From: Deltaproteobacteria bacterium
Lineage (GTDB): Bacteria > Desulfobacterota > Dissulfuribacteria > Dissulfuribacterales > UBA5754
DNA length: 38,844 nt
NCBI GenBank assembly: GCA_036574075.1
Contig: JAINCN010000047.1
Coordinates: forward strand, 1 to 38,844
Direction: 5' to 3'
The notes below the pieces were generated by a model that had not been told where the DNA came from, made no database searches, and saw only the letters and a program-made list of their open reading frames with translations. Positions 6,733-38,844 of this stretch are shown one piece after another. The position numbers and the translations under genes were made by a program. Each line of letters begins with the position of its first letter. The stretch's first letter is position 1.

Positions 6733-8009
6733 TCCTCTCCAATGGTCTCCAGGAACGCCTCGACACGGGTCTTAAGTGGCTCCATGTCTTCAAGGGAATA
6801 ACCAGTATCGATCCTGAGAAAGGGGATACCCTCGGCGGCAAGGCGATCTTCCACCTTTTTAGACTCGATGGCATAGGGCTGGCAAAACTGGAGGGCGTAG
6901 TGGATGACCCCGTCGGCATGGAGCTCTCTGGCCATCCGGACGATGTTATCAAGCCTTTCCGGATTGGGCGTGAAGGTCGCACAATCAATCTTGAGATACC
7001 TATCGCACAGGGCATCGAGCATCCCGTCCACGGTCTCTGCCTCCTCTGAGACGAGGTCCCTGGTATGACGCGCCCCGACACAGCTCTCCTCCCCCACGAT
7101 AACCGCGCCTGAGCTCTCAATCACATAGGGGAGTTTCCAGTTAGGTACGGCCATGGGGCATCCTGAGAGCAGGATCCGCTTCGTGCGCGGGGGAACGACC
7201 CCCTCTCCCTTTTGCACCCTCTCCTCCAGTTCGGAGCAAAGACGCTCGACGGTCTCAGTGAACCGGACAGGGTCGTCGTAAAAGGCGACCTGGTTGATGA
7301 GAAGGGCATCTCTGCCGCTGATGGGAGCGGGCTCAGCGGCCCGGAGGGCGGCGAGCCGATTGAGGGCCCTGCGCCTTCGGTTCACGAGCTTAATTGCGTT
7401 GCGGAGTTTTCCAGGCTCAAGCCCCTTTCCGGTGAGATCTTCGATGGCCTTGCGGAGTCTATCCATCTCGGTCCGAAAAAGTGCGCGCGCAGCAGCACTC
7501 TTGCTCTGGGGGACCTCCATCACGTAGGTGGGCTGAAATTCACCGAAGAGTTCATAAGCCTTCTTCTTCCCATCGCACGTGGTCTCTCCGATCACGAGAT
7601 CGCACGAGGATGTGTAGGGGCAGAGACGGGCGAGGCGGAACCCGAAGAAGGACTTGATGAGAGGGCACGTGTTACGGGGCAGATAACGCTCTGCAGCATC
7701 GAATCCAGCCTCAGCCCCGGCGCAGAGCCCAATGCAGACCCCGTCGAGAGCAAGGATCAGCTCCTCGGGGACGAAGACACAAAAGAGACCTATGACCTTG
7801 CGTCCAGCAGACTTGGCCTCCTGGATCTCCCGGATACGTAGCCCATGGACCTCTCTCATGACGAAATCGAGGTACTCCATGCCCTTGAGCCTACCTGACT
7901 GGGAGAGATAAATGTCGTTGTAAAAACGTCCGAGTACCGTCAAAAGTGCCTCGTGGGCGCTGAGATCGAGGTCCAGTGCCTTCCACATGGCCTCGTGTGT
8001 CTTATTCAT
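6729..8009 (-). CDS. 2-hydroxyacyl-CoA dehydratase-family / double-cubane cluster-type protein
   Basis: About 426 residues when started at ATG 8009 (MNKTHEAMWKALDLDL), chosen over a longer frame because of a GGGGGAG SD and because the extra N-terminus would be antisense-like sequence inside the DUF1684 gene. HgdB-family blocks include GLFCVFVPEELILALDGV, GLCAGAEAGFDAAERYLPRNTCPLIKS, CPYTSSCDLVIGETTCDGKKKAYELF, ILLSGCPM and HYALQFCQPYAIES. Cysteines in these blocks are candidate [4Fe-4S] or double-cubane ligands. Only one dehydratase subunit is present, not the two of classical dehydratases, the arrangement of double-cubane cluster protein plus reductase pairs. The substrate cannot be told. 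Confidence 0.85.
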   Translation of the reverse strand: MNKTHEAMWKALDLDLSAHEALLTVLGRFYNDIYLSQSGRLKGMEYLDFVMREVHGLRIREIQEAKSAGRKVIGLFCVFVPEELILALDGVCIGLCAGAEAGFDAAERYLPRNTCPLIKSFFGFRLARLCPYTSSCDLVIGETTCDGKKKAYELFGEFQPTYVMEVPQSKSAAARALFRTEMDRLRKAIEDLTGKGLEPGKLRNAIKLVNRRRRALNRLAALRAAEPAPISGRDALLINQVAFYDDPVRFTETVERLCSELEERVQKGEGVVPPRTKRILLSGCPMAVPNWKLPYVIESSGAVIVGEESCVGARHTRDLVSEEAETVDGMLDALCDRYLKIDCATFTPNPERLDNIVRMARELHADGVIHYALQFCQPYAIESKKVEDRLAAEGIPFLRIDTGYSLEDMEPLKTRVEAFLETIGEE

Positions 8010-19688: not shown

Positions 19689-19890
19689 CCTGAATCCGTG
19701 GGCCGACCTGTCTGCCGTGCCCGGCACAGGCAGGCGGCTGGGGTATTTGTGGAGTGAGGCGCCCATGGACGGGCGCCGTCGGCAAATCTGCCCCCATGGA
19801 CGGGGGCTATTTGCCGCACGGAACAAATACCCCAGCCGCCTGTTTATTCTGTGAAATCGAAAGGATGCGTGCATATCTCACGGATTCAGG
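19689..19890 (+). repeat. Cruciform repeat, copy C (family 1, core inverted, with extra palindrome)
   Basis: A 202-bp copy bounded by CCTGAATCCGTG and CTCACGGATTCAGG. The inner stem CAGGCGGCTGGGGTATTTGT pairs perfectly with ACAAATACCCCAGCCGCCTG. The linker is on the right, as in copy A, but the core between the inner arms reads GGAGTGAGGCGCC first and GGGGGCTATTTGCC last, inverted relative to A, F and G. An extra GC palindrome (GTGCCCGGCAC) sits after the left end. It lies between the divergent HD and dnaA genes. Confidence 0.9.
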
Positions 19891-26475: not shown

Positions 26476-26735
26476 GTCCCTCCCTTCGCATCGGAACGAC
26501 AGGTTCCCATGTTCCATGCATGAGCCAGGAATAGGCTCGCGCCACCTTTATGCCGGACACCGCTCAGGCAGTAAGCAGGTCTCCCCATGAACTCGTCGCG
26601 GAGCAGTGGTGCAACCCCGCTTTCGGTGTCATCAGTCATGCTACCGACACGTCATCAGTGGTTCGTTTTCACTCGCCTTCCTATTCCACACCTGACACGA
26701 TCTTTGTCATGCCTTTTCCGTAACGCTCACCACAC
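26471..26735 (-). other. Possible group II intron 5' fragment or other structured RNA remnant
   Basis: No protein match in any frame. On the minus strand the stretch starts GTGTGGTGAGCG (26735), compatible with the GUGYG 5' end of group II introns, and continues with purine-rich blocks (GGCGAGTGAAAACGAACC, ATGGGGAGACCTGC, CATGGGAACCTGTCG) that look like intron domain I. It is antisense to the integron cassettes, the usual orientation for attC-targeting introns. No reverse transcriptase or domain V is present. Low confidence; the call rests on style of sequence, not on a fold. Confidence 0.3.
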
Positions 26736-26794
26736 CGGCTCTTAACCGATGCAGCTTTCGGTGGTTTGATGCCTGCCCCTGCAGACCGACATCA

Positions 26795-26893
26795 AAGGAG
26801 CAGGCCCGCAAGTATGCCTGATCGCAGAACTGCCGTTTCGTGATCCTCACCAACGGCAACCTGCACTACTTCTGGGACCTCGAACGCGGCAGG
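26795..26893 (+). pseudogene. hsdR: Type I restriction HsdR, short N-terminal fragment
   Basis: KEQARKYA, stop, then SQNCRFVILTNGNLHYFWDLERG in one frame: the HSDR_N block in which a REase subunit domain carries LTNG..HYFWDLE.G. An in-frame TGA interrupts it and both sides are unrelated. It ends beside CTCGGATTCAGG (26895-26906), possibly a damaged cruciform-repeat end. Confidence 0.6.
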
Positions 26894-30069: not shown

Positions 30070-30210
30070 CCTACGTTTCTCAGGATTTGCGCGCCTTCCT
30101 GCCTGTCGCCTGCCTGTCGGCAGACAGGACAGACAGGGCATCTCGGGCTTTTTCATCGGCATCATAACTTTTTTCACCCGAATAGCCTGTGGATTCCTGC
30201 CGGAAAAATA

Positions 30211-30385
30211 CCTGAATCCGTGAGCCTACGGCCGGGGTATCTGTTTCGTGCGGCAAATAGCCCCCATCCATGGGGGCAGATTTGCCGTTCGAGCCCCATC
30301 CGTGGGCGCCTCACTCCACAAATACCCCGGCCGTAGGCTTATTGTGAAAAATTGCCAAGTTAAGTTCATATCTCACGGATTCAGG
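30211..30385 (+). repeat. Cruciform repeat, copy F (family 1, most complete)
   Basis: 175 bp with perfect 14-bp ends. The inner arm CCTACGGCCGGGGTATCTGT pairs with ACAAATACCCCGGCCGTAGG. Hairpin GGCAAATAGCCCCCATCC / ATGGGGGCAGATTTGCC and a second GGGCGCC hairpin lie inside, then the linker TTATTGTGAAAAATTGCC. It sits just after the serA stop. Confidence 0.9.
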
Positions 30386-33347: not shown

Positions 33348-33368
33348 GTCTTATCCTCCTAAAAAGGA

Positions 33369-33533
33369 CCTGAATCCGTGAGCCGACGTTCGGGATATTT
33401 GTTCCGTGCAGCAAATAGCACCCATCTATGGGGGCAGTTTTGCCGTTCGAGCCCCGTCCATGGGCGCCTCCATCCACAAATACCCCGAACGTCAGCTTAT
33501 TGTGAAAATTGCCAAGTTAAGTTCATATCCAGG
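33369..33533 (+). repeat. Cruciform repeat, copy G (family 1)
   Basis: Left end CCTGAATCCGTGAG; inner arm CCGACGTTCGGGATATTTGT pairs with ACAAATACCCCGAACGTCAG with a few mismatches. The right end is damaged: GTTCATATCCAGG lacks CTCACGGATT. It sits between the divergent aminotransferase and the riboswitch. Confidence 0.85.
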
Positions 33534-33635: not shown

Positions 33636-33664
33636 TTGACAGAATTTTCTCGAAATAGAAATAT
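33636..33664 (+). promoter_or_regulatory. Candidate promoter of the cobalamin riboswitch operon
   Basis: Perfect TTGACA (33636-33641), 17-bp spacer, AAATAT (33659-33664), a weak -10, about 20 bp before the riboswitch core. The area between is A+T-rich. Confidence 0.4.
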
Positions 33665-33679
33665 CAATATCTAATAAGA

Positions 33680-33815
33680 TCAAAATGGGGAATCCGGTGG
33701 AATTCCGGAGCGGGCCCGCCACTGTGAGTGGGGACGAAGGCAGCATAAAGCCACTGGCCGCAAGGCTGGGAAGGCGCTGCCAGGGGAAGAACCACAAGCC
33801 AGGATACCCAAAGTG
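33680..33815 (+). promoter_or_regulatory. Cobalamin riboswitch
   Basis: Conserved cobalamin-aptamer blocks in order: GGGAATCCGGTGGAATTCCG, CGGGCCCGCCACTGTGAGTG, AAGCCACTGG, GGGAAGGCG and the B12 box AAGCCAGGATACC (33797-33808). An intrinsic terminator 60 bp further (33876-33904) is the probable expression platform, ending transcription when the cofactor binds. Confidence 0.93.
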
Positions 33816-33875
33816 ATAGTCGGATCCTGGTACGAGCACTGCCTGGGTCCAAAAACCATGCGGCAAGACGGGATG

Positions 33876-33904
33876 CCCTGGACATGTTTTGTCCAGGGTT
33901 TTTT
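33876..33904 (+). terminator. Intrinsic terminator, riboswitch expression platform
   Basis: CCCTGGACA (33876-33884) pairs with TGTCCAGGG (33890-33898) over a 5-nt loop, followed by TTTTTT (33899-33904). It precedes the SD of the first gene by a few bases. CCTGG and GGGTCC at 33842-33850 can pair with terminator arms and may form the antiterminator. Confidence 0.88.
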
Positions 33905-33917
33905 GTTTGGAGGGAAC

Positions 33918-34673
33918 ATGATGGAAAAGGCCGTATTCTTCGGGCTTGTCTTTTCGATCTTCGCCTTTGCGGTAAAGGGCGGCATGGGACTTGCTTTCAG
34001 ATCGGGCCTCGGTGACCGCTGGTATATGCGGCTCATGGTCCCCGGTTATTTTGCCGCATACGGTGCCCTGTTTGCAGCAGGCGCCTGGATCGCGCGTTCC
34101 GGATTCATCCACAGGCACATGGAGGCATTTTTGAAGATCGCTGAGGCAGGTATCCTGTTGCACCTTGCCCTTGCCGGGGGTCTTCTCGTTTGGGGGATGG
34201 CACTTCTAAAAAGAGACATTAAAGGATGCGAAAAGACCCGGGCGTCATGGCTCCTACTTGTCCCCTGCCCTGTATGCCTTACGGTGATCCTTACAACCAC
34301 CTCTGTCCTTTACGTCGTCTTCCCGCACGGAGGCATGCTGCCGGCACTTGGCGCCTACGGGCTCTTTGCCGCCATCTCCCTGGTAACCATGGTGTCGGTT
34401 GTGATGATCAGCCGCATCGCCAAGGGCATAGAGGGCTCCTCTCCCCTTCACCGCCTCGGGACCGTCATGGTGCTCCTTGCCTCCTATTTCATTGCAACCC
34501 TCTACATCACCCCCCATGTCTCCGCCATCCCTTCCATCTACGCAATCGCCTCCCGCGACGCTTCCGGCCCGGCTGTTCCAGGGGTCCACAAGGCAGTTAT
34601 CGCAGGCATATGCATCGTCCTTTTCGTCTGCGGATACATCGCTGGAAAACGCAAGCAAGGAGGGGCGCCATGA
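33918..34673 (+). CDS. DUF2162 multi-span membrane protein, putative transporter
   Basis: About 251 residues from ATG 33918 (SD GGAGGG); the upstream extension to 33813 would cross the terminator and is rejected. It has roughly six hydrophobic segments (AVFFGLVFSIFAFAVKGGMG, VPGYFAAYGALFAAGAWIA, LHLALAGGLLVWGMALL, LGAYGLFAAISLVTMVSVVM, VMVLLASYFIATLYI, AGICIVLFVCGYIAG) and a conserved PCPVCLT motif in a loop. DUF2162 proteins occur beside ExbB-like and DUF2149 genes, and control by a cobalamin riboswitch points to B12, corrinoid or cobalt uptake. The transported species is inferred only. Confidence 0.75.
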   Translation: MMEKAVFFGLVFSIFAFAVKGGMGLAFRSGLGDRWYMRLMVPGYFAAYGALFAAGAWIARSGFIHRHMEAFLKIAEAGILLHLALAGGLLVWGMALLKRDIKGCEKTRASWLLLVPCPVCLTVILTTTSVLYVVFPHGGMLPALGAYGLFAAISLVTMVSVVMISRIAKGIEGSSPLHRLGTVMVLLASYFIATLYITPHVSAIPSIYAIASRDASGPAVPGVHKAVIAGICIVLFVCGYIAGKRKQGGAP

Positions 34674-35269
34674 GCCCTAAGGCGATCCTGGAGTCTTTCA
34701 TATACATCGTTTCGAGTTCCCTTCTTTATCCAGTCCTGGCCCTCCTGTCCTTCCTGACGCTCGCTGTCATCGTTTATGCAGGGGCCTTCTGCTCCGAGTG
34801 GATAGGGCGTTCAAGGATGCGTCGTAAAACCGTCGATGACCCGGCGGCAGCGATTGCGCGGGGCGATTTCTCGAGCTTCTCGCCGGCGACCCGCAAGTAC
34901 ATCGAAAAACTTCTTAAAATCCTCGAAAAGGCCCCAAAGGAAGAGGAGATCGAATACGTACTTCAGGAAAACAGACAAAAGCTTATGGCCTCACTCGATC
35001 CTGTGAGGATACTTGTAAGGATCGGCCCGAGTCTCGGACTCCTCGGCACCCTGATCCCCATGGGTACTGGCCTTGCCGCACTCGGCCAGGGGGACATGAC
35101 CCAGCTTTCGTCCCAGATGGTCATTGCCTTTACCACAACGGTCGTGGGGCTTGCCCAGGGGACCCTTGCCTACGTCTTCTTTACCGTAAAATCACGCTGG
35201 GTTGAGAAGGACACCAGGGATATGGAACTGGCAACCGATCTCCTTGCCGGAGGGATAGGCAGGCCATGA
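34670..35269 (+). CDS. MotA/TolQ/ExbB-family proton channel protein
   Basis: 199 residues from ATG 34670 (SD AGGAGG), overlapping the preceding stop (ATGA). An N-terminal membrane span (PVLALLSFLTLAVIVYAGAF), a cytoplasmic helical stretch (EEEIEYVLQENRQKLMASLD), then the ExbB/TolQ core IGPSLGLLGTLIPMGTGLAAL and VIAFTTTVVGLAQGTLAYVFF. It should form a proton-driven stator pentamer, with the ExbD-like role taken by the next gene. Confidence 0.9.
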   Translation: MSPKAILESFIYIVSSSLLYPVLALLSFLTLAVIVYAGAFCSEWIGRSRMRRKTVDDPAAAIARGDFSSFSPATRKYIEKLLKILEKAPKEEEIEYVLQENRQKLMASLDPVRILVRIGPSLGLLGTLIPMGTGLAALGQGDMTQLSSQMVIAFTTTVVGLAQGTLAYVFFTVKSRWVEKDTRDMELATDLLAGGIGRP

Positions 35270-35598
35270 GATATCTCGCAAGGAGACGATCGGCCACTTT
35301 CGATGAATCTCCGAATCCCCTTGATGGCGTCATAAATCTATTCGATCTCGTTCTGGTCTTCATGATCTGTCTTCTCCTTGCCCTCTTCAATGTCTATCAC
35401 TTGAACGGCCTGTTTGATGAGAAGACCGATGTCACGGTCATGAAAAAGACAGCAGACGGCCAGCTCGAGATCATCCAAAAACAGGGAAAGAAGATAGAGA
35501 CCCTAAAGGTGAGCAGGGAAAAAACAAAAGGCCTTGGGGTAAGGCTCGGCACCGCCTACCGCCTCGAGGACGGGACCTACGTGTATGTCCCTGAATGA
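35266..35598 (+). CDS. DUF2149 protein, ExbD-like single-span partner
   Basis: A 110-residue protein: a short basic N-terminus, then NLFDLVLVFMICLLLALFNVY, one membrane segment preceded by a conserved Asp (FDLVLVF), as in ExbD/TolR where that Asp carries protons. A small periplasmic domain with MKKTADGQLEIIQKQGKK and GTAYRLEDGTYVYVPE follows. The start overlaps the ExbB-like stop (ATGA). The three genes are one translationally coupled operon under the riboswitch. Confidence 0.82.
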   Translation: MRYLARRRSATFDESPNPLDGVINLFDLVLVFMICLLLALFNVYHLNGLFDEKTDVTVMKKTADGQLEIIQKQGKKIETLKVSREKTKGLGVRLGTAYRLEDGTYVYVPE

Positions 35599-35604
35599 GT
35601 GAAA

Positions 35605-35781
35605 CCTAAATCCGTGGGTTATGTATTCAACCTTGCGATTTTTCAGAACAAGCCGACTTCCGGGGTATTTGTGGATGGAGGCGCCCATGGACGGGGCTCG
35701 AACGGCAAATCTGCCCCCATGGACAGGAGGCTATTTGCCGCACGGAACAAATACCCCGGCCCGTAGGCTCACGGATTCAGG
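35605..35781 (-). repeat. Cruciform repeat, copy H (family 1, inverted)
   Basis: 177 bp, left end CCTAAATCCGTGGG (degenerate), linker TTATGTATTCAACC on the left, inner arm CCGACTTCCGGGGTATTTGT, hairpins GGCGCCCATGG and GGCAAATCTGCCCCC, right arm ACAAATACCCCGGCCCGTAGG, right end CTCACGGATTCAGG. The whole element is in the opposite orientation to copy A. It starts 7 bp after the DUF2149 stop, so it may double as a terminator. Confidence 0.88.
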
Positions 35782-35873
35782 TGACGGATGATATAGTAGC
35801 GCCAGGGATTATGATGGTGTGAGTGGACTTATAGAGATTGAGAGGATGTGGTGATGAGTATTTTTAATATGCA

Positions 35874-35981: not shown

Positions 35982-38844
35982 ATGAGACCTGGAAGGAGTT
36001 CAGCGGTTTTGTCAGGTTTTTTTTCGATCCTTTTCATCGTGTTGGCAGTAAACTCCTTTGCCAAAACCGAGGCAGGTGCCGGGGATGAGGCCGTCAAGGC
36101 ACGCATCGCCGAGGAGTATGGTAGGCTTCCCCTTGCCTTTGAGGAGAACCTGGGTCAGAGCGATCCACAGGTGCGGTTTTTGTCCCGGGGCAGCGGCCAT
36201 GCCCTGTTTCTTACGCCTGAGGAGGCGGTTTTGACCTTGTGGAAGGCAAAGGATGGGGACTCGGCCAGGGAAAAGGCGGGTAAGTCTTTGGACCGGGCGT
36301 CTTTAGGAAAGGCAGTGGAGAAGGAAGGTGCAGTCATCCGGATGCGGCTTTCAGGCGCCAAGAAGGCCCCTGAGATGGTGGGTGAGGCCAGGCTTTCTGG
36401 TGTGAGCAACTACCTCAAGGGCAATGACCCCTCCAAATGGCGCACCAATGTGCCCAATTACAGCCGGGTCAGATATAAGGGGGTCTATAAGGGCATTGAT
36501 CTCGTCTTTCATGGCAGCCAGCAGCGTCTTGAGTACGACTTTGTGCTTGCCCCCGGTGCCGATCCTCGAGCCATCGGCATGGAGTTTGAGGGCGTGGAGC
36601 AGGTGGATGTGGATGACAAGGGGGATCTGATCCTGCACACAAAGCTGGGGGATGTGATCCAGCAGGCGCCGGTGATCTATCAGGAGATAGACGGCAAAAG
36701 GGTGCCGGTTTCTGGTGGCTATCGCCTTAGCAAGGACGGTCGTGTGGGCTTTCAGGTGGCCTCATGGGACCGGAAGCGGGAGCTGGTGATCGACCCGGTG
36801 CTGGTGTATTCCACCTACCTCGGGGGGAGTGATTGGGATGAGGCCAATGCCATCGCCGTGGACGCCTCGGGTAACGCCTATGTCACGGGGCATACGTACT
36901 CATCGGATTTTCCCCTCAAAAACGCCTATGATTCGATCTACGGGGACGGCTTGGATGCCTTTGTCACCGCTGGTGTTGACAGCATGGACGAGATTAATCC
37001 TGCCACCGTGCCCCAGGTTACATATCAAGGCTCCCAAGACGCTAATAATGCACGCGCTTGGTTGGCCAAGATCCCTAATCAGATCACTAACGTGACCTAT
37101 GACGATGTGGTCAGAGAGGTCCAGCAAAACATTGCTGATCCAGGTGATGTTGTCACCATCCATTTCGCTCCCTCTGCCGCCGACATCCCCAACCCGGAGC
37201 GCGGCTTTCATGCAGACGTGGATTTTACGCAACAAAGCCTGGGTTGGTACAGCGCAATGGGCTACACCCTCGCTTACACCAACTTGGGGAGGCTGGATGC
37301 CTACCGCGACCGCGACCTGCCGCCCGAATACCTGAACGCCCTGCCCGCCCATTTTCAACTCGCGCGCGAGGCGGGCATCAAATTCATCGTGCGCTTTTCG
37401 TATAACGACGGTCCCTCTGCGTCGAATACCGAACCCGACGCCCCGCTTGCGCAAGTCTTGCGTCACATCGAACAACTCGCACCCATTCTCGAAGCCAACA
37501 AGGATGTGATTGCCTGGTTCGAAGCGGGCTTCATCGGCGCCTGGGGCGAGTGGCATTCGTCCACCAACGGGCTGGATACGCCCGAAAACCGCGTCCTTAT
37601 CCGCGACGCGCTTTTTGCCCATTTCCCCCAAGACCGCTTCATTCTCTTTCGCTACCCTAGAGACTTCACCGCCTGGTATCCGCAGCCGCTGACCGAAGCG
37701 CAAGCCTTCACCCAAACTTCTCAGGCGCGGACGGGACATCATAACGATTGCTTCCTTGCCAGCGAGGACGACCAGGGAACGTACTACGACTTTGACGGCT
37801 CGCTCAAAATCGAAGAATGGAAAACCTACATCGCCCAAATGGGACGCTTCGTCCCCATCAGCGGCGAGACCTGCAACCCCAACCCGCCGCGCTCCGATTG
37901 TCCAACCGCCTTGCAAGAGATGGAAATGTTGCACTGGACGGCGTTGAACGAAGCCTGGCATCCAGACGTGATTCAGGGCTGGAAAGACCAGGGCTGTTAC
38001 GCGGAAATTCGCAAGCGGCTGGGGTATCGGTTAACACTCCTCGAAGCAAGATTCAGCCCAACCGTCCGAGCGGGAAGCGAATTTCAGGTGCAGGTCAAAC
38101 TCGAAAACACGGGCTTCGCCTCACCCATGCTGGTTCGTCCCGTGTACATCGTTCTGGCGGGACGAGATGGAATCTCGTCCTACCCCATCCCCGTTGACCC
38201 ACGCCGCTGGGAGCCGGGCGAACACACCTTCACCGCCAGCGTTGCCCTGCCCGCCAGCCTGCCCGCAGGTGAATACCGCCTTGCCCTATGGCTGCCCGAC
38301 CCAGCCAGCGCATTGCGCGACGACCCGCGTTACGCCATCCGCTTCGCCAACGAAAATGTTTGGGACGCGGAACACGGCTGGAATGTGCTTGGCAGCCTCA
38401 TCATTCAAGAAGACGGCTATGACGACAACGCTCTGCTGACTATTTCAATGTCTGGCGCAGTCTTTGGCACAGTTACCAGCAGCCCTGCTGGGATATACTG
38501 CGGCAAAGACTGCACAGAGAGTTATCCCACCGGCACACTGGTGACCCTGACTGCCAGACCTGTTCCGGGTTCTACCTTTGCAGGGTGGAGTGGTGATTGT
38601 AGTGGCACAGGGGACGCTACCGTCATCATGGACGCCGACAAGAGCTGCACTGCCATGTTCTCATCTAACCAAGGCATCGTCAGGCTGTACAACACCATCC
38701 AGAAGATCTTCATCGCCTACTATCAGCGCCCCGCTGATCCGGGGCGGCTGTCCTACTGGGCCCAGATGGCTGAAGAATCATGCGGGGATCTCACCCAGAT
38801 CATCAATGCCTTTGCCAACTCACAGGAGGCACAAGAACTGTACG
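35982..38844 (+). CDS. Large secreted chimeric protein: SBBP-type N-terminus, DUF4874/DUF4832, bacterial repeat, DUF4214 (incomplete)
   Basis: Open to the right edge, at least 954 residues. A signal peptide ends near SFA (27). Residues about 45-275 are the domain preceding SBBP propellers (FEENLGQSDPQVRFLSRGSG, YKGVYKGIDLVFHG, LEYDFVLAPGADP). One SBBP blade (274-327, VYSTYLGGSDWDEANAIAVD) ends at DAFVT, where KL...G would normally follow. From about 404, NPERGFHAD and FIGAWGEWHSS are DUF4874; from about 583, RTGHHNDCFLASEDDQGTY is DUF4832. Then a Cys-rich bacterial repeat (FAGWSGDCSGTG...ADKSCTAMF) and a DUF4214-like end (YYQRPADPGRLSYW). The middle uses more CGC/CCC/CAA codons than the N-terminus. 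Probably a surface or extracellular carbohydrate- or matrix-associated protein. Confidence 0.7.
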   Translation, partial: MRPGRSSAVLSGFFSILFIVLAVNSFAKTEAGAGDEAVKARIAEEYGRLPLAFEENLGQSDPQVRFLSRGSGHALFLTPEEAVLTLWKAKDGDSAREKAGKSLDRASLGKAVEKEGAVIRMRLSGAKKAPEMVGEARLSGVSNYLKGNDPSKWRTNVPNYSRVRYKGVYKGIDLVFHGSQQRLEYDFVLAPGADPRAIGMEFEGVEQVDVDDKGDLILHTKLGDVIQQAPVIYQEIDGKRVPVSGGYRLSKDGRVGFQVASWDRKRELVIDPVLVYSTYLGGSDWDEANAIAVDASGNAYVTGHTYSSDFPLKNAYDSIYGDGLDAFVTAGVDSMDEINPATVPQVTYQGSQDANNARAWLAKIPNQITNVTYDDVVREVQQNIADPGDVVTIHFAPSAADIPNPERGFHADVDFTQQSLGWYSAMGYTLAYTNLGRLDAYRDRDLPPEYLNALPAHFQLAREAGIKFIVRFSYNDGPSASNTEPDAPLAQVLRHIEQLAPILEANKDVIAWFEAGFIGAWGEWHSSTNGLDTPENRVLIRDALFAHFPQDRFILFRYPRDFTAWYPQPLTEAQAFTQTSQARTGHHNDCFLASEDDQGTYYDFDGSLKIEEWKTYIAQMGRFVPISGETCNPNPPRSDCPTALQEMEMLHWTALNEAWHPDVIQGWKDQGCYAEIRKRLGYRLTLLEARFSPTVRAGSEFQVQVKLENTGFASPMLVRPVYIVLAGRDGISSYPIPVDPRRWEPGEHTFTASVALPASLPAGEYRLALWLPDPASALRDDPRYAIRFANENVWDAEHGWNVLGSLIIQEDGYDDNALLTISMSGAVFGTVTSSPAGIYCGKDCTESYPTGTLVTLTARPVPGSTFAGWSGDCSGTGDATVIMDADKSCTAMFSSNQGIVRLYNTIQKIFIAYYQRPADPGRLSYWAQMAEESCGDLTQIINAFANSQEAQELY

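Follow-up and report, generated by a model that had tools for sequence, protein, structure and literature searches.

A cobalamin-riboswitch operon for DUF2162, an ExbB-type protein and DUF2149 in a UBA5754 bacterium and its possible role beside a periplasmic CobN/HmuS-type chelatase

The analyzed window comprises all 38,844 nt of JAINCN010000047.1, contig 47 of 66 in a Deltaproteobacteria bacterium genome (UBA5754; GCA_036574075.1) of 1.99 Mb that is 99.9% complete. The following riboswitch-preceded operon was identified on its forward strand:

33650..33829 (+), cobalamin riboswitch aptamer, full length (RF00174; Rfam, cmscan)
33875..33906 (+), intrinsic terminator/expression platform of the riboswitch leader, a GC-rich hairpin with T-run
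33921..34673 (+), DUF2162 membrane protein, 250 aa (PF09930, 102.7 bits)
34670..35269 (+), stator subunit of the ExbB/TolQ/MotA family, 199 aa (PF01618, 47.3 bits)
35266..35598 (+), DUF2149 protein, 110 aa (PF09919, 97.9 bits)

The aptamer matched positions 1-189 of the RF00174 model with 104 bits at a cut-off of 31.5 bits (cmscan). With a riboswitch model built in this analysis (R1), which had the window among its training sequences, 134 bits were obtained for 33648-33829. In the terminator, a stem of 10 pairs and a loop of 5 nt are followed by the T run; hairpin and T run were placed at 33875-33899, and the leader 33830-33912 folds with −33.9 kcal/mol (z = −3.6). The complete riboswitch with intrinsic terminator that an earlier note on this DNA had described could thus be confirmed, as could the three coupled membrane genes, which all lie 3′ of the riboswitch, are joined by ATGA overlaps and match the three Pfam families listed above. 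Elsewhere in the window, a group II intron D1-D4 match (RF01999, 93.6 bits) was found at 26690-26809 (−), and a long open frame at 35982-38843 (+), the start of which resembles a secreted repeat protein, runs off the contig end.

The second protein is a true member of the MotA/TolQ/ExbB family, as the note had proposed: its PF01618 score compares with a cut-off of 22.9 bits, and the profile-profile comparison with true ExbBs gave 97% in hhalign (E 7e-11, 181 columns). The third protein, DUF2149, has a single membrane helix with an invariant aspartate (Asp27) that is aligned on the ExbD Asp. An ExbB-family protein (Pfam, hhalign) and a partner with an Asp in its single membrane helix are also found in ExbBD-TonB, TolQR and MotAB. 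In contrast to these systems, the partner here is DUF2149, for which a small beta domain past the helix was modelled by AlphaFold at low confidence; this domain is probably located in the periplasm. The hhalign comparison of DUF2149 with ExbD was not significant (1%) and aligned the Asp-bearing helix only, no homology to the ExbD periplasmic domain was detected by hhalign, and the Pfam search of the operon proteins gave no PF02472 (ExbD/TolR) match for DUF2149. Homology over both the helix and the periplasmic domain, which defines the ExbD/TolR family, was thus not found. Since the comparison was not significant and the model is of low confidence, the term ExbD-like applies to position and residue only. 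The one-span, Asp-bearing partner of the earlier description therefore stands, without the homology to ExbD that the name implies; DUF2149 is the positional equivalent of ExbD and of the Bacteroidota HmuV.

For DUF2162, an alignment of 51 homologues revealed invariant Lys19, His81, Pro115, Pro117 and Cys119, while Cys116 is conserved in at least 90%; the PCPVCLT motif singled out previously is real. The six spans given for this protein have to be revised, as the AlphaFold model (pLDDT 85.7) suggests seven long helices, the fourth of which is broken at PCPVC. A LysE/CcdA-type fold, suspected from the broken helix, was not supported (best Foldseek E 0.14, TM 0.38), and Foldseek returned no significant PDB fold match for the model. 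By PDB sequence search, no relatives were found for DUF2162 and no meaningful ones for DUF2149.

The distribution of the genes was analyzed in two surveys. Among 297 genomes of the phylum, DUF2162 was detected above cut-off in 27 genomes at 30 places. CobN is encoded in all 27 of these genomes compared to 85 of the 297 overall, and it lies on the same strand within 8 kb at 24 of the 30 loci; of the remaining six, five lie on broken contigs and one is the locus of the window genome. A cobalamin riboswitch was located within 8 kb upstream at 21 of the 30 loci. Of the nine loci without one, six lie at the end of a contig, which makes 21 of 24 assessable loci, at a chance expectation of about 0.7% per locus.

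For the second, cross-phylum survey, a DUF2149 alignment was scanned over named genomes and the best 80 of 447 relatives were taken, to which all following counts out of 80 refer. Most of these belong to Desulfobacterota, the other hosts being Oxalobacteraceae, Rhodocyclaceae, Lentisphaerota, Planctomycetota, Synergistota and Sphingobacterium. On the same strand, ExbB was present at 79 of 80 and CobN at 78 of 80 loci, the two without CobN (L123 and L127) being small contigs. DUF2162 was found at 63, a TonB-dependent receptor at 59, CbiZ at 43 and BtuF at 40 of the 80 loci, with CbiZ often fused to BtuF. The order DUF2162-ExbB-DUF2149 is fixed in 61 of 80; a complete operon is found, e.g., in Trichlorobacter thiogenes (L131). 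Ten loci which keep ExbB-DUF2149 lack DUF2162 (e.g., Oxalobacteraceae), nine of them with CobN; because these loci lose DUF2162 and keep the other genes, the constant core is ExbB-DUF2149-CobN. DUF2162, placed at the centre by the earlier note, is missing from Oxalobacteraceae and others in which riboswitch, ExbB, DUF2149 and CobN are retained.

With the R1 model, a riboswitch was found upstream of 49 of the best 80 loci, 18 were undecided at contig ends and 13 had none, which corresponds to 49 of 62 non-edge loci across phyla. At two of the loci counted as riboswitch-less (L096 and L148) a match lies just beyond the rule used. An Rfam check of nine loci, including two hmu-like ones, detected no riboswitch in them. 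Unrelated regulators in most genomes, which the note had named as evidence against its proposal, were therefore not observed in either survey, and the co-occurrence with cobN that it had suggested surveying was found in both.

A second cobalamin riboswitch of the window genome was located on contig 9 (locus L003) by a riboswitch search of the genome. A CobN-like protein of 1,321 aa, with a hydrophobic segment at either terminus, is encoded just 5′ of it, and a TonB-dependent receptor, CbiZ, CbiK and a ThiC paralogue (BzaB/ThiC-like) 3′ of it. By eye, CbiZ and CbiK have N-terminal hydrophobic stretches; the ThiC paralogue scored above two ThiC cut-offs, and its BzaB match below the cut-off. The receptor is one of three plug-domain receptors of the genome. 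The previous statement that no TonB or receptor is present is thus correct for the three-gene stretch, beside which no TonB was seen, and does not extend to the genome.

The closest relative, locus L074 (Deltaproteobacteria bacterium UBA5754), is collinear with the window over serA, serC and the riboswitch operon at 81-92% identity. Its operon continues directly into a CobN-like chelatase of 1,300 aa with 87% identity to the CobN on contig 9. The following copies of a dispersed repeat of ~185 bp were found in the window genome:

window 35604..35790 (+), MITE-like repeat at the operon 3′ end
contig C9, L003 529-705, same orientation as the window copy, just upstream of the chelatase gene
window 33368-33530, 30210-30385, 297-416 and 19740-19837, further copies
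L158 5335-5511 and 475-622, further copies

The copies at the operon end and in L003 are 88% identical. With its inverted ends CCTGAATCCGTGAG ... CTCACGGATTCAGG and many copies, the repeat looks like a MITE, and it is absent from L074 at both comparable places. Because the genes are contiguous in L074 and the repeat lies on both loose ends, the three-gene operon is regarded as the first part of an ancestral operon that was longer and that is broken, in the organism or only in its assembly, at this repeat of mobile appearance. A further protein of 65-66 aa (LxHWxEHNxxHxxxYKDWAE), His-bearing and matching no Pfam family, is encoded between DUF2149 and CobN in L074 (6874-7068) and just 5′ of CobN in the window genome (L003 756-956); a relative with a poly-His tail at its end occurs in L092 (6580-6888 −).

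The chelatases encoded near stator genes differ from soluble CobN. Using a simple Kyte-Doolittle test on complete proteins, the C-terminus was hydrophobic in 89 of 91 and the N-terminus in 80 of 91, some of the N-terminal misses probably being wrong start codons, whereas neither terminus was hydrophobic in any of 19 soluble CobN controls. Five CobNs from the unlinked group are anchored; they belong to the stator type, and their partners lie outside the contig. A ChlI/ChlD-like ATPase pair was found near seven of the 19 soluble CobNs (three confirmed by Pfam) and adjoined none of 102 stator-type CobNs; conversely, ExbB and DUF2149 were beside none of the 19 soluble CobNs sampled. Judged by their termini and neighboring genes, the stator-type enzymes do not fit CobNST. 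With CobNST and ChlHID they share the PF02514 superfamily and the conserved GTHG-type histidine, whereas those systems are soluble and have ATP-driven AAA+ partners. A tree of 56 members (midpoint root) separated 19 soluble from 37 stator types, HmuS included, with a support of 100, and the stator-type chelatases branch beside the Bacteroidota heme dechelatase HmuS.

This position raises the question of a true hmu operon, i.e., a heme-iron dechelatase system that stands near B12 genes by chance. In the PDB, the chelatase of the window genome matched HmuS best (504 bits), followed by CobN (477 bits) and ChlH, and the linked receptor scored slightly higher with heme than with B12 receptor models, all of them below the cut-off. 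In HmuS, the heme iron is proposed to be held by His-1209 together with His-538 (PMC12583661). His-538 (HmuS numbering) is kept in all stator-type chelatases; the column of His-1209, however, is Asp in 94 of 96, the two exceptions with His being the hmu-like loci of Bacteroidota, and Glu-1212 is mostly replaced by Gln, so that the HmuS motif LSLDHxxEFMGG is not found in those 94. As the operons also contain a cobalamin riboswitch, CbiZ, BtuF and CbiK, a heme system is very unlikely. His or Asp at HmuS position 1209 provides a diagnostic column for heme versus presumed corrinoid members.

The similarity to Bacteroidota hmuYRSTUV nevertheless extends over the whole core: both comprise a membrane-anchored CobN-superfamily enzyme, an ExbB (HmuU) and a DUF2149 (HmuV), together with a multi-helix membrane protein and a TonB-dependent receptor. 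The window genome has this Hmu core, with the enzyme on another contig than DUF2162-ExbB-DUF2149. Different here are the cobalamin riboswitch, BtuF-CbiZ/CbiK in the operon, the chelatase without the His-1209/Glu-1212 motif, and DUF2162 in the slot of HmuT. Homology of DUF2162 to HmuT was not supported (hhalign ~1%, with an HmuT profile of two sequences only, since DUF2149 matches are few in the Bacteroidota sample, 3 of 296). Because the chelatases branch beside HmuS without its diagnostic histidine, the operon represents a widespread form of the HmuS(T)UV system that is under cobalamin regulation.

The periplasmic CobN-like proteins BtuS1 and BtuS2 of B. fragilis resemble the chelatase described here. 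According to two studies, BtuS was proposed as a third type of CobN, B. fragilis NCTC 9343 has a riboswitch-preceded hmu-like operon without HmuY, and the BtuS/hmu-like operons were tested for heme iron only; the parts considered describe neither the DUF2162 form nor a spread beyond Bacteroidota (PMC6460266, PMC10100974). In addition, a 'cobN-exbB-exbD-tonB' cluster beside corrinoid genes was reported for Geobacter lovleyi pSZ77, in a genome without CobS/CobT, and interpreted as an ordinary TonB system (PMC3403914). By its published description, this cluster may be likened to the present operon for its CobN with ExbB-type genes.

The earlier note had viewed DUF2162-ExbB-DUF2149 as a proton-driven inner-membrane transporter of corrinoids or cobalt; in the form considered here, it would be fed by the chelatase. 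The predicted multi-helix structure of DUF2162 with invariant Lys19, His81 and Cys119 and the gene order fixed in 61 of the best 80 loci are consistent with this, and P. gingivalis HmuTUV is presumed to carry heme inward (PMC13227078). However, Oxalobacteraceae and others without DUF2162 keep the remaining genes, and HmuT, which occupies this slot in Bacteroidota, showed no relationship to DUF2162 in the profile comparison. A replacement of ABC or ECF parts by DUF2162 is not supported, given FecCD/BtuC-type permeases in 25 of the 27 DUF2162 genomes, the window genome included, and the CbiM/CbiQ cobalt transporter in the latter. Such a transporter is thus rather unlikely. Its self-standing three-gene form is not supported, as the constant partner is the CobN/HmuS-type chelatase, contiguous in L074 and split here at the repeat; what holds of the proposed B12-linked energised system are the proton-channel-type genes under B12 control and the link to corrinoids. 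A role in salvage by auxotrophs only was rejected as well: CbiC was found in 26 of the 27 genomes and in UBA5754, and most DUF2162 genomes therefore seem able to make the ring.

Alternatively, ExbB-DUF2149 could take the place of ExbB-ExbD in energising TonB and, with it, the linked outer-membrane corrinoid receptor; CobN and DUF2162 would then do no more than share the pathway. HmuU and HmuV of the hmu operon are usually read as a TonB energiser, as in the Bacteroides literature (PMC10100974). A receptor is annotated at 59 of the best 80 DUF2149 loci. The only PF02472 match of the window genome belongs to a Tol-Pal cluster, although a TonB-like protein is encoded along with the three plug-domain receptors, and ExbB-DUF2149 could therefore serve TonB in this genome. 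On the other hand, complete TonB/ExbB/ExbD sets are located 3′ of the DUF2149-CobN operon in L065 (12790-14613), L104 (14574-16264) and L109 (18150-19755), and a separate true set lies beside the DUF2149 set in L093. CobN is the steadier neighbor (78 versus 59 of the best 80), no homology between DUF2149 and the periplasmic part of ExbD was detected, and among the control rows DUF2149 and DUF2162 matches were found in Methanosarcina acetivorans, an archaeon without outer membrane. Service to TonB is considered improbable to a similar degree as the transporter, the separate TonB sets and the archaeal matches arguing against it as a general role.

As a CobN/HmuS-type enzyme adjoins them in nearly every relative, the three genes probably encode the inner-membrane part of a corrinoid machine. 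The reading we prefer, if tentatively, is that they form the inner-membrane half of a cobalamin-repressed corrinoid complex, the other half of which would be the periplasmic 'BtuS'-type CobN/HmuS chelatase. A corrinoid as substrate is suggested by the riboswitch and by the corrinoid genes in the operons (BtuF-CbiZ fusion, CbiK, TonB-dependent receptor). The TonB-dependent receptor would admit the corrinoid, periplasmic BtuF/CbiZ would bind and trim it, and the chelatase would then insert, remove or exchange the ring metal.

ATP is unavailable in the periplasm, and a periplasmic chelatase cannot use it. For this reason, ExbB and DUF2149 may act on the chelatase as a proton-driven stator in place of the AAA+ proteins CobS/CobT and ChlI/ChlD. 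Since the stator genes accompany the periplasmic type and the ATPases some of the soluble ones, the most economical explanation is that work or gating of the enzyme comes from the stator; the likeliest arrangement would be a coupling of proton flow to the periplasmic chelatase through ExbB-DUF2149. DUF2162, where present, might carry the freed metal, the ring itself or electrons through the inner membrane via its Lys/His/CPxC site. Cytoplasmic CobN and ChlH need their ATP-driven AAA+ partners, while purified HmuS strips iron from heme with NADH and no stator, requires no ATP, and shows low activity when NADH is all that is supplied (PMC12583661). The stator may thus be needless for catalysis, and it is for this activity and the possible TonB role that the preferred reading is kept tentative. 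The more general proposition, a periplasmic tetrapyrrole/corrin chelatase driven by an ExbB-DUF2149 proton stator instead of an AAA+ ATPase, is put forward with still greater reserve.

The hmu operon, the BtuS proteins, the riboswitch-preceded B. fragilis hmu-like operons and the Geobacter lovleyi CobN-ExbB cluster are already published. No paper on DUF2162 and five on DUF2149 were found in the literature search, and none of the open-access literature searched was found to propose a stator-driven chelatase; this mechanism would be new, if shown. A motor family known from TonB, Tol-Pal, gliding and flagella (ExbB/MotA) would then serve an enzyme. Over several phyla, the constant core consists of ExbB, DUF2149 and a membrane-anchored CobN, with soluble CobN relatives lacking the stator, and outside the heme branch this core is mostly under cobalamin riboswitches, sometimes with a separate TonB set adjacent. 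A proton-driven chelatase thereby becomes directly testable, and DUF2162 and DUF2149 gain a working context.

Two further loci with TonB-related genes were noted. On contig C38 (L158), where no cobalamin riboswitch was found, CbiM-CbiQ cobalt ECF transporter genes adjoin a TonB-dependent receptor. L157 encodes a TonB C-terminal protein (6998-7561) in a frame without N-terminal membrane helix, and its neighbors are a receptor and BtuF/BtuC-like ABC genes.
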